Below are positions 27,554-34,358 of a DNA stretch of 64,000 nt, one piece after another. Position 1 is the first letter of the stretch, and the number at the start of each line of letters is the position of its first letter. The stretch spans positions 1,685,001 to 1,749,000 of the forward strand of contig NZ_CP016027.1 of NCBI RefSeq assembly GCF_001663815.1, given 5' to 3'. Both the position numbers and the translations under genes were made by a program. This DNA is from Halothiobacillus diazotrophicus (lineage in GTDB: Bacteria; Pseudomonadota; Gammaproteobacteria; Halothiobacillales; Halothiobacillaceae). Below the pieces are notes generated by a model, which did not search any database, was not told the origin of the DNA, and saw only the letters and a list, made by a program, of their open reading frames with translations.

Positions 27554-28321
27554 TCAGATCGACAGATAGGTCCAGCCTTGACGAATGCGATGCGCCACCT
27601 GCTCCACGGCCGAATCCGTCACGGTTACCCGGGGGAGTAGATTCGGCTTCTTGCCGCTTTCCCGCAGCTTTTCGAGACTGGTGCCGCACACCATGAAGTG
27701 TACATTCGGATATTTCGTCATCAGCGCTTCGATCTGCTGCGCGTAGGGTGTCGTCCCGGAACGGAGGAAATTCAGCCCGTCCGAGTTGGTAAGCACTTCC
27801 AACTGAAAGCCGGGATCATGCGCCGAATTTTTCAGCACCTGTTCGGCCACCTTGAGGGTTTCGCGAAATTTCTCCGGCGAATCCGACCCCAGACGAAGCA
27901 GCACGTTGCGATGCTGAGCGGTCGCCATTAGTGAAGAAGCCGTAACGGCACTGGCGGCCTGCTGCTGCATCGAAACGATTCCAGGATGACCGCCGCCATC
28001 CGTTTGCGCCATGGACCCCGCGAACCAGCCGGCCAAGGCGCCAACGGAGAGCAGGGCGACTGCCGCCACTGCCGTGGGAAACAAGGCGAGCGCCCGAACG
28101 CGAGCGAGGCGTTTCGGCGGCTGTGGAACGGATTGATAGGCTTCGCGCACCCAGTCCTGAACCTGATCGATATCACAGATCATCTGGGTCAGCTTGGGAT
28201 TGTGCTTTACGGCCGAGCGAACCCGCTGCCGATCCTCGATCGTCAACTCGTCGTCGACGAACGCATGAATTTCCTCATCAGAGATTCGGTCCGTATTCAG
28301 ACAGTGGCGTGAGTAGCTCAT
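27554..28321 (-). CDS. Membrane anti-sigma factor with periplasmic DsrE domain
   Basis: A 255-residue protein of unusual composition. Residues 1-70 look like a cytoplasmic anti-sigma domain (ISDEEIHAFVDDELTIEDR), but the zinc motif HxxxCxxC is missing. One TM helix spans about 78-100. Residues 138-255 form a DsrE-like domain that aligns end to end with the secreted DsrE proteins at 29,100 and 31,319, including the single conserved cysteine (C212 in VCGTSLEKL). The start overlaps the sigma stop as ATGA, with a GGAG ribosome site. It presumably holds the ECF sigma inactive until the periplasmic domain receives a signal. The fold assignment is by eye. Confidence 0.85.
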   Translation of the reverse strand: MSYSRHCLNTDRISDEEIHAFVDDELTIEDRQRVRSAVKHNPKLTQMICDIDQVQDWVREAYQSVPQPPKRLARVRALALFPTAVAAVALLSVGALAGWFAGSMAQTDGGGHPGIVSMQQQAASAVTASSLMATAQHRNVLLRLGSDSPEKFRETLKVAEQVLKNSAHDPGFQLEVLTNSDGLNFLRSGTTPYAQQIEALMTKYPNVHFMVCGTSLEKLRESGKKPNLLPRVTVTDSAVEQVAHRIRQGWTYLSI

Positions 28322-28929
28322 ATCACTCTCCTCAAATGACGCCCGGGCGAGGCGGTTTCCCGCACCTCCGGTTGTGGGCGTTCGATCAGCAACTCGCGAA
28401 GCGCCTGTCGACCACGGGACAAGCGGCTCATCACCGTCCCCACGGGAAGATCCAGAATGGTCGCCGTTTCCTTGTAGGAAAACTCCTCGAGATCCACCAG
28501 CGTCACCACGATACGCTGCATTTCCGGCAGGCTCATGATGGCACGTCGCACGCACTCGATCATTTCATCCCGGCAATGAAGACAGTCAGGGGACTGATTA
28601 TCCTCCATGCACAGGGAATCCATGACGTCGTCGATATTTTCTTCCTTCGGGCGGCTGCGCACGTGATCCAGCCAGAGATTCGCCAGAATCCGGATGGCCC
28701 AGCGATCCAGCAGTTCGTCATCGCGCAATTGAGCCTGCTTCTGCAGCGCCCGGATCATCGCCTCCTGAACGAGATCGTCGGCAAGGAAGGCATCCTTGCT
28801 CCAGGAAAAGGCCAACCGGTACATCCGGGGCCGTAATTCGTCCAGGCGCCCGGCGAATGAAAGCCGCCGAAACAGAAACGTTGATATGCCCACTGACTCC
28901 CACCCCGTGTCATCTGTATTTAGGTTCAT
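28318..28929 (-). CDS. ECF-type RNA polymerase sigma factor with cysteine-rich linker
   Basis: A 203-residue group 4 sigma factor. Region 2 covers about residues 28-95 (DDLVQEAMIRALQ; RWAIRILANLWLDHVR). Region 4 covers about 125-180, with the helix-turn-helix YKETATILDLPVGTVMSRLSRGR. The linker between them holds C107, C116, C119 and C126, including a CLHC pair, unusual for the class. The start is uncertain: ATG 28929 lies only a few bases after the predicted transcription start. GTG 28893 (191 residues), behind GGTGGGAG, would give a normal leader. It overlaps the anti-sigma gene by four bases. Confidence 0.93.
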   Translation of the reverse strand: MNLNTDDTGWESVGISTFLFRRLSFAGRLDELRPRMYRLAFSWSKDAFLADDLVQEAMIRALQKQAQLRDDELLDRWAIRILANLWLDHVRSRPKEENIDDVMDSLCMEDNQSPDCLHCRDEMIECVRRAIMSLPEMQRIVVTLVDLEEFSYKETATILDLPVGTVMSRLSRGRQALRELLIERPQPEVRETASPGRHLRRVI

Positions 28930-28938
28930 ACCTATTGT

Positions 28939-28964
28939 GACGTAACGACTTACGTTTTCATTCC
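28939..28964 (-). promoter_or_regulatory. ECF promoter of the sigma/anti-sigma operon
   Basis: On the minus strand: GGAAT (28964-28960), 17 bases, CGTC (28942-28939). This is the classic ECF layout and is identical in pattern to two sites before the DsrE-porin modules. It predicts autoregulation, with transcription starting near 28931. Confidence 0.8.
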
Positions 28965-29009
28965 CCCGGGGCGTCATAAAAATTTAATACACCCATCAAT
29001 ATTAACGTT

Positions 29010-29035
29010 GGAATAAAGGCTTCCGGGATCTCGTC
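29010..29035 (+). promoter_or_regulatory. ECF promoter of DsrE-porin module A
   Basis: GGAAT (29010-29014), 17 bases, CGTC (29032-29035), in a wider TGGAATAAA context. Back to back with the sigma operon's own promoter. Leader of about 57 bases to the ATG at 29100. Confidence 0.82.
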
Positions 29036-29099: not shown

Positions 29100-29579
29100 A
29101 TGATCCAATTGTCTCGGATAACGCCAATCGCTCTGCTATTGGCCGCATCCCTCGCCACGACAGGATTGGCCCAGGCCAATGAAAAAGCGGAACCGGTCGC
29201 CAAAGTCATGCAGGACAAGCCATTCGCGCAGACGCGCGTGGCCCTGCAGATCAGTGACGGCAGCCCCGACAAGCAGACGCTGATCCTCAACGTCGCCAAC
29301 AACCTGCTGAAATTCTACGGACCGGACAAGGTGGACATCGAGGTCGTCGCGTTCGGCCCCGGACTGCGCCTCCTGTTCAAAGGCAACGCCAACAGTCAGC
29401 GCATCGCCGATCTGGCCGCGCAAGGCGTGCGCTTCAGCGCCTGTGAGAACACCATCAAGGCCATGACCAAGAAACTGGATCATGTCCCCGAACTGAACCC
29501 CAACGCGCGCATCGTCCCCGCAGGCATCGTACGCATGGTCGAGCTGAACAAGGCCGGCTATTTCGTGGCCCGCCCGTAA
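29100..29579 (+). CDS. Secreted DsrE-family protein, copy A
   Basis: A 159-residue protein with a cleavable signal peptide (about residues 1-26, ending AQA). The mature part is a single DsrE-like domain: VALQISDGS, then EVVAFGPGLRLL, then RFSACENTI with C115, then IVPAGIVRMVELNKAGYFVARP. C115 is the only cysteine in the mature protein and sits where DsrE-type sulfur carriers hold their cysteine. The protein is therefore predicted to be periplasmic and could carry a persulfide, but that is inference. AGGAG lies 6 bases before the ATG. First gene of module A. Confidence 0.88.
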   Translation: MIQLSRITPIALLLAASLATTGLAQANEKAEPVAKVMQDKPFAQTRVALQISDGSPDKQTLILNVANNLLKFYGPDKVDIEVVAFGPGLRLLFKGNANSQRIADLAAQGVRFSACENTIKAMTKKLDHVPELNPNARIVPAGIVRMVELNKAGYFVARP

Positions 29580-29624
29580 GGCATCACCGACTGACACGAT
29601 AATAAACAGAAGGAACCATCATCC

Positions 29625-30935
29625 ATGCAATTGCACAACACCTCGAAGAAATTCCAACGCTATCTGGCGCTCACCGCGCTCTGTGCCGGCATGGCCGCTG
29701 CCATGCCCAGCGCCCACGCCGCCAACTGGCTGATGCTGCAAGGCACCGAACCCGCAGACAATGCACCGCGCGCCAAGGTCTGGGGTTTTATCCAACCGAT
29801 GTACTCCAAGGACTTCAGTGACGCCTTCGCCGGCAAGTACGTTCCACCGAAACTGATCGGCCCGAGCCTGGACTCCCAGTCTTCGTTCAACATCCTGCGT
29901 GCCCGGATTGGGGTCCGCGGCACCGGCTTCCCGCTGGACAGCCACATCAACTACTTCCTGCTGACCGAGTTCGGCAACAACGCCATCACCAACGGCGGCA
30001 AATACGGCAGCTACAAGCCTTACCTCACCGACGCCAGCATCACCCTGAACTACATCAAGGGTGCCCGCGTCCGCCTCGGTCTGTTCAAATACCCGGGCGC
30101 CGAGGAAGGCCTGCAGGGCATTGCGGCCTTTCCCTACATCGGCTATACCAGCGTCACCAACCAGATGCTGCTGGAGCGTTTCCCGACCAACGGCGAAACC
30201 AACATCGCCCCCCAGACCGTTCCGAATGCGGATATGAATGCCTTCTCCGCACCCGTGGGCGCATTCCGCGATGTCGGCGCTCAGGTATTCGACGCCTTTG
30301 ACGTCGGCAACTGGGAGCACACCTACGCCGTCATGCTCGGCAACGGTCACGGCGTGCAGATGAGCGACAACAACAGCAGTAAGGATCTGTATCTGTACTG
30401 GTCCTCCGCCTATCTGTTCGACAAGAGCGCCAAAGGCCCCTTCCGCCCCAGTTTGAAAATGTTCACCTGGTATCAGAAAGGCAAGCGCACGGATGCCTAC
30501 GACAATACCAAGGAACAGGATCGCAAGCGTTACGGCGTGGGTGTCTCCTACCTGAAGAAACCGTTCCGCGTGTCCGCCGAATACATGTGGGGTCAGGGCA
30601 TGATCTTCCAGGGACAACAAAACCCGCAGCGCATGTTCAACAACAACAAGGCGGCCGGTGGCTATATCGAGGGCGGTTACTTCATCCCCAACACCAAGTT
30701 CGAACTAGATCTGCGCTACGACACCTACAAGCGCAACAAGGGCATCATGAAAGGCCCGACACCCGAAGCGAAGTTCAATACCTGGACCGCGGGCGTGAAC
30801 TACCACTTCAACAAGAAAACCCGGTTCACCCTCGATTATTCCATTCGCAAGTACAGTTCCGTCTTCACCCCCGTCAACAACCAGTTGAAGGACGTAAAAG
30901 GCCTGCTGGCACTGCAGGTCACGGCAGTTTTCTGA
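29625..30935 (+). CDS. Outer-membrane porin, copy A
   Basis: A 436-residue predicted beta-barrel with a signal peptide ending SAHA (about residue 32) and a C-terminal phenylalanine (LQVTAVF), the outer-membrane assembly signal. The sequence is rich in aromatic, alternating strands and asymmetric loops, most like phosphate-selective (Porin_O_P) barrels. A selectivity cannot be read. It follows the DsrE gene by 45 bases with an AGAAGGA ribosome site, so the two form one operon under an ECF promoter. Confidence 0.82.
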   Translation: MQLHNTSKKFQRYLALTALCAGMAAAMPSAHAANWLMLQGTEPADNAPRAKVWGFIQPMYSKDFSDAFAGKYVPPKLIGPSLDSQSSFNILRARIGVRGTGFPLDSHINYFLLTEFGNNAITNGGKYGSYKPYLTDASITLNYIKGARVRLGLFKYPGAEEGLQGIAAFPYIGYTSVTNQMLLERFPTNGETNIAPQTVPNADMNAFSAPVGAFRDVGAQVFDAFDVGNWEHTYAVMLGNGHGVQMSDNNSSKDLYLYWSSAYLFDKSAKGPFRPSLKMFTWYQKGKRTDAYDNTKEQDRKRYGVGVSYLKKPFRVSAEYMWGQGMIFQGQQNPQRMFNNNKAAGGYIEGGYFIPNTKFELDLRYDTYKRNKGIMKGPTPEAKFNTWTAGVNYHFNKKTRFTLDYSIRKYSSVFTPVNNQLKDVKGLLALQVTAVF

Positions 30936-31045
30936 TCCGGAACCCGCCGATTACAGGGACCTAAATCACGGACCGATTTTCACGGATGACCCCGACGCCC
31001 TAGCCGACCGAGGATTCCGGTAAAGGCGTCACCTATTCACCCACT

Positions 31046-31077
31046 GGCGCACCTGAGTTTTCAGGGGCGCCTTTTTT
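31046..31077 (+). terminator. Terminator of DsrE-porin module A
   Basis: Stem GGCGC-CCTGA / TCAGG-GCGCC with a GTTT loop, followed by six T residues. Confidence 0.92.
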
Positions 31078-31228
31078 ATTGCCCCGGGCCAATTCACGCG
31101 ACCCGATACCCTCGCCCGGACACCCTCACAAGTCGTCGCACTTTAATGCCGAGAACGCACGAAATCGGCACTTATTTACATGCCATTAACGAATCATAAA
31201 AACCGGTTATGGGATAAAAATAAACACT

Positions 31229-31254
31229 GGAATAAACGATTTCACGGCTTCGTC
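31229..31254 (+). promoter_or_regulatory. ECF promoter of DsrE-porin module B
   Basis: GGAAT (31229-31233), 17 bases, CGTC (31251-31254), again in the context TGGAATAAA. It has the same spacing as the other two sites. Confidence 0.82.
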
Positions 31255-31256
31255 AT

Positions 31257-31304
31257 GGTGCGTGAACCCGCAGTAAACGGGGGATTACAACGACGTCACG
31301 CACC
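31257..31304 (+). promoter_or_regulatory. Possible leader hairpin of module B
   Basis: GGTGCGTGA (31257-31265) pairs perfectly with TCACGCACC (31296-31304) around a 30-base loop, just ahead of the AGGAG ribosome site. In copy A only the GTGA/TCAC core remains pairable. Confidence 0.4.
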
Positions 31305-31318
31305 ACCAGGAGTTAACA

Positions 31319-31798
31319 ATGATCCATCTCTCGCGGATTACACCAATTGCACTGCTTTTGGCCGCATCACTTGCCGCCACCGGCCAGGTTCACGCCAATG
31401 AAAACGCGGAACCGGTCGCCCAGGTTCTTCAGGAAAAACCGTTTGCCCAAACCCGCGTCGCGCTGCAGATCAGCGACGGGAGCGAGGAAAAACAGACCCT
31501 CGTCCTGAACGTTGCCAACAACCTGCTCAAGTTCTATGGCCCCGACAAGGTCGACCTGGAAATCGTCGCCTTCGGCCCTGGGCTGCGGCTCTTTTTCAAG
31601 GACAACGTCAATAGTCAGCGCATCGCCGACTTGGCCGAACAAGGGGTTCGATTCAGCGCCTGCGACAACACGATCGCCGCCATGGCCAAACAGTTGGGCC
31701 ACGCCCCGGAACTGAACCCGGTCGCGCGCATCGTTCCGGCCGGCATCGTACGCATGGTCGAGCTGAACAAGGCCGGTTTTTTCGTTGCCCGCCCCTAA
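31319..31798 (+). CDS. Secreted DsrE-family protein, copy B
   Basis: A 159-residue paralogue of the protein at 29,100, about 84% identical by eye. The signal peptide ends near HANE. The mature domain keeps the sole cysteine C115 in RFSACDNTI and the C-terminal AGIVRMVELNKAGFFVARP. Most differences are conservative or lie in the signal peptide and on the helix after the cysteine. It is under its own ECF promoter with AGGAG before the ATG, and porin copy B follows after 60 bases. Confidence 0.88.
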   Translation: MIHLSRITPIALLLAASLAATGQVHANENAEPVAQVLQEKPFAQTRVALQISDGSEEKQTLVLNVANNLLKFYGPDKVDLEIVAFGPGLRLFFKDNVNSQRIADLAEQGVRFSACDNTIAAMAKQLGHAPELNPVARIVPAGIVRMVELNKAGFFVARP

Positions 31799-31858
31799 CC
31801 CCCAAGTCGCCACGTTCGCACACGTCGCCTTGATTCAAGCACCCTAAAGGAACCACTC

Positions 31859-33190
31859 ATGCACACGCATTTCCAAAACAAGAAGTTTCAAAAATTCCTG
31901 GCACTGTCCGCGCTCTGCGCCGGCATGGCCGCTGCCATGCCCAGCGCCCACGCCGCCAACTGGATCATGTTGCAGGGCACCGAACCGGCCGGAACGGCAC
32001 CCCGCGCTGATGTCTGGGGCTTTATCCAACCCACCTACTCCAAGGATTTCAGCAGCCCCTATGCCGGCAAGTACAACCCGTCGAAACTGATCGGCCCGAG
32101 TCTCGACTCGCAATCTTCCTTTGGCATTCAGCGCGCCCGAATCGGGGTACGCGGCACCGGCTTCCCCCTGGACAGCAAGATCAACTACTTCCTGCTGACC
32201 GAATTCGGCGACAACGTCCTGACCGACGGGGGCGCCTATGGCAGCTACAAGCCCGTGCTGACCGATGCCAGCGTCACGCTGAACTACATCAAGGGCGCCC
32301 GGATCCGCCTCGGTCTGTTCAAGTACCCGGGGGCCGAAGAAGGCCTGCAGGGCATCAACCTGTTCCCGTACATCAATTACACGGACGTCACCAACCAGAT
32401 GCTGCTGGAGCGTTTCCCCACGAAAGGCGAGGTCAATATCGCGCCCCAGCCGACACCCAACGCCAACATGAATGCCTTCTCACAACCGGGGGGCGCCTTC
32501 CGGGACGTCGGCGTACAGGTCTTCGACGCATTCGACATGGGCAACTGGGAACACACCTATGCCATCATGCTCGGCAACGGTCACGGCGTGCAGATGAGCG
32601 ACAACAACAGCAGCAAGGATCTGTATCTGTACTGGTCGTCTGCCTACCTGTTCGACAAGAACGCAAAGGGCGCCTTCCAGCCCAGCGTGAAAATGTTCAC
32701 CTGGTACCAGAACGGCAAGCGCACCGACGTGTGGAACACCAGCCAGGAACAGGACCGCAAGCGCTATGGCGCCGGCGTCACCTATATGAAGATGCCGTTC
32801 CGCGCGACTGCCGAATACATGTGGGGCCGCGGGATGATCTTTCAGGGCGCGCAAAACCCGGGTAACGGCACCACCACCGCCGCAACGATCTTCAACGACA
32901 ACAAAGCGGCCGGTGGCTACATCGAGGGCGGCTGGTACATTCCGAACAGCAAATGGGAACTGGACCTGCGTTACGACACCTACAAACGGAACATCGGTGT
33001 CATGAGCGGCCCGATGCCGGAAGCGAAGTTCAGCACCTGGACGACCGGCGTAAATTATCACTTCAACAAAAAGACCCGCTTCACGTTGAACTACGCCTTC
33101 CGCAAGGACAGCGCAGTCACCACGGCGGTCAACAACCAGCTCAAGGACGTAAAGGGCCTGCTCTCGCTGCAGGTGACCGCCGCGTTCTAA
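31859..33190 (+). CDS. Outer-membrane porin, copy B
   Basis: A 443-residue paralogue of the porin at 29,625. It has the same signal peptide end (SAHA), the same first mature residues (ANWIMLQGTEP against ANWLMLQGTEP) and the same final strand ending in phenylalanine. It has a longer loop near GAQNPGNGTTTAATIF (about residues 336-351), so the channel entrance may differ from copy A. AAAGGAACC serves as ribosome site. A strong terminator follows. Confidence 0.82.
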   Translation: MHTHFQNKKFQKFLALSALCAGMAAAMPSAHAANWIMLQGTEPAGTAPRADVWGFIQPTYSKDFSSPYAGKYNPSKLIGPSLDSQSSFGIQRARIGVRGTGFPLDSKINYFLLTEFGDNVLTDGGAYGSYKPVLTDASVTLNYIKGARIRLGLFKYPGAEEGLQGINLFPYINYTDVTNQMLLERFPTKGEVNIAPQPTPNANMNAFSQPGGAFRDVGVQVFDAFDMGNWEHTYAIMLGNGHGVQMSDNNSSKDLYLYWSSAYLFDKNAKGAFQPSVKMFTWYQNGKRTDVWNTSQEQDRKRYGAGVTYMKMPFRATAEYMWGRGMIFQGAQNPGNGTTTAATIFNDNKAAGGYIEGGWYIPNSKWELDLRYDTYKRNIGVMSGPMPEAKFSTWTTGVNYHFNKKTRFTLNYAFRKDSAVTTAVNNQLKDVKGLLSLQVTAAF

Positions 33191-33344: not shown

Positions 33345-34358
33345 ATGATCCATCGCCATGCATCGCGCAATGCACTCAGACTCGGCATGATTGCCGGCCT
33401 GATGCTCGGCACCGTGCTTTCCGTCCAGGCCGCTTCTGCCAGCACGCCGGAACCCGCCGGCAAGTACATGAACAGCTATCCCAAGAGCCTGCTGGCGGTC
33501 CAGCCCCCATGGAGCGCCCCGTTGTACCCGGGCACCGAGGTCACCGTACCCGGCATGGAAAACGTCCCGGATATCCACGGCGACATCAACGACCCGCAAC
33601 TGGTGGTGTTCTTCGCGGGCAACCAGTACATGCTGGTCAACCGCCTGATGGCGGCTTTCAGCAAGGCCTATCCGCAATATCCCCGCGTGGTGGCCTTCAC
33701 CCTGCCGCCGGGCCGTCTCATCACCGCGATCAAGCGCGGTAACGGCATCCTGCTGGGCAACATGCACATCACCCTCAAGCCGGATGTACTGACTGCCGGA
33801 CACGGGAGCATCATGCGACTTCAGAACGACGATCACTGGTTCACCGGCACCGAAGTCTATGCCCGGAACCGGCTGGCCATCATGACGCAGAAAGACAATC
33901 CGGAACACATCACCGGACTCAAGAGCCTGGCCAATCCGTCAATCAAGCTCTGCATGCCGAACCCCGCATGGGAGGGTATCGCCAAGAGTTCGATCATCCC
34001 GGCGCTGAAGAAAACCGGCGGCGAGCCCCTGGTCGATGAGGTCTACACGAAGAAGGTGGCGGACGGCACCACCTTCCTGACCCACGTCCACCATCGCGAA
34101 ACGCCCATCCGGATCATGTCGCACCAGTGCGATGCCGGTGTCGTCTGGTATACCGAAGCCTACTTCCACGACAAGATCGCGCACCATGCCACCGACATCG
34201 TGCCGATCCCGGAGGCGGACAACCAGGAGGTCAGTTACACCGCCGGACAAATGAAGGATGCCCCGCACCCCGAAGCCGCCAAGGCGTTCATGAGCTTCCT
34301 GCTCAGTCCACAGGCCCAGACGCTTTACCACCAGTTCGGATTCATGCCGCCCAAGTAG
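33345..34358 (+). CDS. Periplasmic substrate-binding protein (ModA/type 2 fold), orphan
   Basis: A 337-residue protein with a signal peptide (cleavage near ASAS, about residue 30-33) and the layout of a type 2 periplasmic binding protein. It has LVVFFAGNQYMLVNRLMAAF early and a C-terminal helix pair EAAKAFMSFLLSPQAQTLYHQFGFMP typical of ModA/AcfC-like proteins. The ligand is probably a small oxyanion, but this is inferred. No ABC permease or ATPase gene is adjacent. It lies 41 bases past the porin B terminator with a good GGGAG ribosome site but no visible promoter, so it may be expressed by read-through of module B. Confidence 0.82.
   Translation: MIHRHASRNALRLGMIAGLMLGTVLSVQAASASTPEPAGKYMNSYPKSLLAVQPPWSAPLYPGTEVTVPGMENVPDIHGDINDPQLVVFFAGNQYMLVNRLMAAFSKAYPQYPRVVAFTLPPGRLITAIKRGNGILLGNMHITLKPDVLTAGHGSIMRLQNDDHWFTGTEVYARNRLAIMTQKDNPEHITGLKSLANPSIKLCMPNPAWEGIAKSSIIPALKKTGGEPLVDEVYTKKVADGTTFLTHVHHRETPIRIMSHQCDAGVVWYTEAYFHDKIAHHATDIVPIPEADNQEVSYTAGQMKDAPHPEAAKAFMSFLLSPQAQTLYHQFGFMPPK

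Follow-up and report, generated by a model that had tools for sequence, protein, structure and literature searches.

A predicted membrane anti-sigma factor with a periplasmic DsrE-fold domain in Halothiobacillus diazotrophicus and its association with sulfur-oxidation genes

The regulators otherwise known to control such genes as sox are mainly SoxR-type repressors and members of two-component systems. The ECF26 sigma factors, which include RpoE1 and RpoE4 of S. meliloti and SigE/RpoE1 of Starkeya novella, recognize a -35 element GGAAT and a -10 element CGTC, and in these systems sulfite induces sulfite-oxidising enzymes (PMC3511301, PMC6527743). The means by which ECF26 anti-sigma factors sense sulfur compounds has been named an open question (PMC6527743). 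In Arcobacter butzleri, the sigma/anti-sigma pairs of ECF sigma 2 and 7 were shown to alter sox gene expression (PMC3445524). Here we describe a membrane regulator that may suggest how sulfur-oxidising bacteria perceive the sulfur compounds on which they live. The fold of the candidate sensor is known, a single cysteine in it is invariant, and its cognate sigma factor and a sharp promoter are defined, so the ECF26 sensing question becomes testable. For the dsrE-porin and sox genes of widespread sulfur oxidisers, the analysis also offers a candidate regulator.

Architecture of the fusion protein

The window, the whole stretch of DNA analysed, comprises 64,000 nucleotides of the Halothiobacillus diazotrophicus genome. 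Its minus strand includes a single open frame, ATG to stop, for which the original prediction had been an anti-sigma N-terminus, one transmembrane helix and a C-terminal DsrE domain joined in one protein; the ORF, the family profile and the structural model agree on this arrangement. The nearest named relatives found by sequence matching are Halothiobacillus records, at 84% identity. The parts of the gene are as follows.

27554..28321, minus: gene for the 255-aa anti-sigma factor, DsrE domain at its C-terminus (single ORF, family alignments, model)
28127..28282, minus: predicted cytoplasmic anti-sigma domain, residues ~14-65 (zf-HC2 E = 0.023; alphaproteobacterial N-terminal matches; model)
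28013..28087, minus: single transmembrane helix, residues ~79-103 (predicted helix 73-104, sequence)
27557..27913, minus: periplasmic DsrE-fold domain, residues 137-255 (profile, model, fold matches)
27686..27688, minus: codon of the invariant C212 (alignments of fusions and standalone DsrE)

Pfam searches with the single fusion sequence gave DsrE at E = 6.5e-4 and the zf-HC2 match listed above, both of which miss the curated cut-offs. Pfam alone was thus marginal, and stronger tests were needed for the domain claim. A family alignment (A3) was built from the fusion and 36 relatives from named genomes. Against the PDB, the C-terminal part of this 37-member profile matched MTH1491 (1l1s) at E = 7.6e-23, with cysteine on cysteine, and ST0148 was matched at 6e-9. 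The AlphaFold2 model contains a confident alpha/beta domain, with pLDDT above 90 across most of residues 138-255. When this model was compared with the PDB by VIA-align, the ten top entries all belonged to the DsrE family, with Z from 16.9 to 11.1 (1l1s, MTH1491, 16.9; 2pd2, 16.4; YchN, 13.2; DsrE, 11.7; TusD, 11.5), and the next row scored 7.2. By profile search and structure prediction alike, residues 138-255 fall inside the DsrE fold.

The anti-sigma part of the model consists of helices 15-22, 28-40 and 42-63. These N-terminal helices and the one membrane helix together predict the layout of a membrane-bound class I anti-sigma factor, with zf-HC2 below threshold. The basic segment KRLARVR before the membrane helix is expected to give an N-in, C-out topology. 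Through a shared N-terminal profile, the N-terminal stretch of the fusion is also matched in alphaproteobacterial anti-sigma factors that adjoin sigma genes. A second cysteine, C49 in the cytoplasmic part (codon 28175-28177, minus), is kept in 72 of 81 distinct fusions.

In the model, C212 lies at the end of a strand, ahead of a helix. This position is cysteine in 81/81 distinct fusions and in 54/54 standalone DsrE relatives, and C115 of the two nearby secreted DsrE proteins falls at the same place in the alignment, as the original prediction had noted. When the fusions and secreted DsrE proteins were aligned with MTH1491, YchN and TusD, C212 was the sole invariant column; it occupies the position of TusD C78 and of the YchN and MTH1491 cysteines. 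Comparison of the family profile with TusD alone, as a single sequence, gave no match, so the cysteine equivalence rests on the multiple alignment and the fold matches. We infer direct sensing through C212, a residue that could instead have a structural or metal role.

Gene neighbourhood and promoter motif

The fusion gene is directly downstream of an ECF sigma gene, with a 4-base overlap. Divergent from this pair are dsrE, porin, dsrE, porin and solute-binding protein genes.

28318..28929 (28318-28977 by longest ORF), minus: cognate ECF sigma factor (Sigma70_r2 E = 2e-12, Sigma70_r4_2 E = 5e-17)
28939..28964, minus: sigma-facing promoter-like site GGAATGA-N15-CGTC, one mismatch
29010..29035, plus: promoter-like site GGAATAA-N15-CGTC, 64 nt before the dsrE1 ATG
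29100..29579, plus: secreted standalone DsrE protein 1, with C115 (Pfam DsrE E = 0.0011)
29625..30935, plus: outer-membrane porin, Porin_O_P family, copy 1 (Pfam E = 2.1e-16)
31229..31254, plus: promoter-like site GGAATAA-N15-CGTC, 64 nt before the dsrE2 ATG
31319..31798, plus: secreted standalone DsrE protein 2, with C115 (Pfam DsrE E = 0.015)
31859..33190, plus: outer-membrane porin, Porin_O_P family, copy 2 (Pfam E = 3.3e-15)
33345..34358, plus: periplasmic solute-binding protein SBP_bac_11 (Pfam E = 5.7e-38)

The dsrE-porin cassette is duplicated in tandem in the window (29100-33190), each dsrE having its own copy of the promoter motif. Relatives of the SBP_bac_11 protein are encoded beside the fusion in another genome (L163) and, in a third (L208), downstream of a motif copy.

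The motif was first seen by reading the gaps between sigma and dsrE genes, as GGAATAA followed 15 bases on by CGTC. In its conserved form, GGAATAA-N14/15-CGTC, it faces the sigma gene on one side and, on the other, the divergent genes for secreted DsrE and porin, and it matches the published ECF26 consensus GGAAT/CGTC. Within one substitution the window holds three copies, all at the expected places (sigma gene, dsrE1 and dsrE2). Since the sigma-facing site sits inside the longest sigma ORF, the sigma factor probably starts at or downstream of the ATG at 28929, not at 28977. Several Halothiobacillus genomes have two copies in opposite directions, one towards sigma and one towards dsrE, and a spacer of 14 is used by one Chromatiales-type lineage. 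For 48 loci outside Halothiobacillus, a count of the exact motif with spacers of 14-17 gave 43 copies beside the sigma gene versus 7 in the other 697 kb, an enrichment of ~119-fold. Genome-wide, 71 fusion genomes contained 239 copies compared to 116 of a reversed control pattern; for 50 SoxB genomes without the fusion the corresponding numbers were 45 and 87.

A sigma gene adjoins the fusion in 55/55 loci. The fold, the invariant cysteine and the adjacent sigma genes support the prediction of an anti-sigma factor whose periplasmic part is a DsrE domain. In a conservative search of these loci, with gene calls in unannotated loci made in this analysis, a standalone DsrE was found near the fusion in 37, a porin in 20, a DUF255/thioredoxin-type protein in 12 and sox genes in 5. 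The sigma/anti-sigma pair heads soxXYZAB in two genomes, G182 and G292, where sigma and then fusion are followed by cytochrome c, soxY, soxZ, soxA and soxB, with dsrE and porin divergent. The pair in G192 has as neighbours a sox cluster with another dsrE, together with genes for a YeeE-type sulfur transporter, a solute-binding protein and a thioredoxin.

Other features recur near the fusion. A DUF255/DsbH thioredoxin-type protein is encoded close to it at L048:8707-10524 and in L084, L056, L057, L064 and L074, and a DUF302 protein in L168. In Chromatiales-type loci (L056, L057, L064, L068, L069, L073, L074 and L076) a second ECF sigma gene follows the sigma-fusion-dsrE unit, which suggests two linked sigma systems; in L074 the second sigma gene is followed by that of a DUF3379 protein, which has a weak anti-sigma match.

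Distribution and predicted regulon

The fusion was present at full length in 66 of 369 genomes, a sample drawn evenly from the class, and in many genera; named carriers include Thiobacillus, Sulfurisoma, Thiohalobacter, Thiogranum and Sedimenticola. A phylum-wide draw of 398 genomes, searched with a stricter limit, gave full-length fusions in the same class only, and its other matches covered just the membrane helix and the DsrE part. Plasmid-borne copies of the fusion were looked for and none was found. A divergent fusion from Burkholderiales (L075:1094-1738) has an outer domain closer to standalone DsrE than those of other fusions, and it is possibly the product of an independent fusion event.

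SoxB was encoded in 65/66 fusion genomes compared to 85/303 of the others (Fisher p = 5e-29, not corrected for relatedness). A same-strand motif copy precedes soxB or its operon in 16 of the 66 fusion genomes (G182, G106, G335, G288, G192, G148, G262, G384, G279, G230, G177, G149, G275, G035, G297 and G292) and in 0/50 SoxB-positive genomes without the fusion (Fisher p = 5e-5, in a test that ignores phylogeny). These placements were made by coordinates for all 16, and the sequence was inspected for nine. Other genes downstream of the motif encode YeeE (G108), a solute-binding protein (G182), secreted DsrE and porin. An exact motif upstream of a secreted DUF302 protein was noted at G000:C1:566545-566570 (L128), and also in two other Halothiobacillus genomes (L144 and L156).

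In the window's own genome, no motif within one substitution was found in the 20-kb SoxB region; exact copies at 304962 and 1449338 and an N18 copy at 594256 have no convincing target. As no motif was found at its sox genes, the regulon in Halothiobacillus seems to consist of just the local cassettes plus the gene for the DUF302 protein. The predicted role of the system in sulfur metabolism is supported by the motif at dsrE, porin, sox, YeeE and solute-binding-protein genes and by the co-occurrence with SoxB. Judged by comparative genomics, control of sulfur-oxidation genes by the sigma/anti-sigma pair is a well supported prediction.

Possible mechanism and comparison with known systems

Taken as a whole, a model in which periplasmic sulfur acts on the DsrE domain at C212 and thereby frees the sigma factor for GGAATAA-N14/15-CGTC promoters appears to us reasonably likely; its ligand, cysteine chemistry and release step are parts that we infer. 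The anti-sigma factor would hold the sigma factor at the membrane. As reduced sulfur is processed in the periplasm, the DsrE domain would take up sulfane sulfur or another reactive sulfur on C212, either alone or in a mixed oligomer with a secreted DsrE protein, and release of the sigma factor would follow, through proteolysis or a change of conformation. From these promoters, the freed sigma factor would then transcribe the operon that encodes it and the cassettes of secreted dsrE and porin; further targets would be the DUF302 protein in Halothiobacillus and the sox thiosulfate-oxidation genes in many other species. We hold more tentatively the narrower reading that a sulfur-carrier domain now serves as a receptor, with C212 loaded directly or by secreted DsrE and the regulon controlled by sulfur flux. 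If true, periplasmic sulfur flux would itself control a sulfur-oxidation regulon in many sulfur oxidisers among the Gamma- and Betaproteobacteria.

A variant of this model, in which the ligand of the DsrE domain is the secreted DsrE protein, loaded or free, and a mixed oligomer reports periplasmic sulfur flux, draws on the homology of the sensor domain and secreted DsrE, which have the same cysteine, and on the secreted dsrE found beside the pair, under the same promoter, in at least 37 of the 55 loci. DsrE-family proteins also form oligomers; the DsrEFH and TusBCD assemblies are hetero-hexamers (cf. the title of 2d1p). Some fusion loci, however, have no standalone DsrE within the flank, and we regard the variant as somewhat unlikely. 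Less probable again is a sulfite-stress response like that of other ECF26 systems, with sulfite or an adduct binding to or reacting with DsrE and with sox, dsrE and porin serving detoxification: the promoter class is that of the sulfite-responsive SmRpoE4 and SnSigE, but the targets are thiosulfate-oxidation, DsrE and porin genes, not sulfite dehydrogenase genes, and the sensor domain is unlike the alphaproteobacterial one.

Porin genes among the targets, and the RseB/MucB-like outer domain of related anti-sigma factors, would also fit an RseA-like envelope-stress system that senses porin or membrane damage, in which DsrE passively replaces that domain. The near-complete restriction to SoxB genomes, the sox targets and the invariance of C212 would be unexpected for such a system, which seems to us very improbable. 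As for chance similarity to DsrE, or an annotation that joined two genes, the single-sequence Pfam scores under the curated cut-offs could be read that way. Chance similarity is ruled out by the profile match (E = 7.6e-23), the Z of 16.9 and dozens of single-ORF orthologues. Two separate genes, by frameshift or erroneous joining, are likewise ruled out because the single ORF is conserved across many genera, and we give this explanation practically no weight.

We found no DsrE-bearing anti-sigma factor in the open literature; an entry in an ECF catalogue may exist. With the ECF26 systems the fusion system has in common an ECF sigma factor, a co-transcribed membrane anti-sigma factor, regulation of sulfur-compound oxidation and the promoter consensus. 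Related anti-sigma factors of Alphaproteobacteria resemble the fusion in their N-terminal region. Those found through the fusion's N-terminus had no Pfam DsrE match, and an alignment of eleven alphaproteobacterial anti-sigma factors contained no invariant cysteine. In a model of one, the N-terminal helices are the same but the outer domain is RseB/MucB-like (Z about 9); the two kinds of protein thus share their cytoplasmic half and differ in the sensor. Over its full length, the fusion departs from the usual ECF26-type anti-sigma factor in its outer domain. Given this different sensor, which lacks an invariant cysteine, sulfur responsiveness does not need a DsrE domain. A plasmid-borne relative of the sigma factor has sulfite oxidase and DUF305/YncE neighbours, as in the ECF26 literature. 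In a sigma tree with long branches and without reference models, the fusion-associated sigma factors fall outside the alphaproteobacterial ECF26-like clade (support 98/99), and we therefore call them ECF26-like, not members of ECF26.

The Arcobacter butzleri pairs are a precedent for sox control by ECF sigma factors, and the sections cited here name no sensor domain or signal (PMC3445524). RseA and MucA, with RseB and MucB, likewise combine a single-span anti-sigma factor with a periplasmic regulatory part, but their sensor fold and regulon are unlike those of the fusion. In comparable alphaproteobacterial anti-sigma factors the outer domain is RseB/MucB-like, with neither a DsrE domain nor an invariant cysteine. 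The fusion has the fold and the cysteine at the active-site position in common with the DsrE/DsrF family (MTH1491, ST0148, YchN, TusD and DsrE); unlike in those proteins, its DsrE domain stands behind a membrane helix and an anti-sigma domain, and is predicted to be periplasmic.
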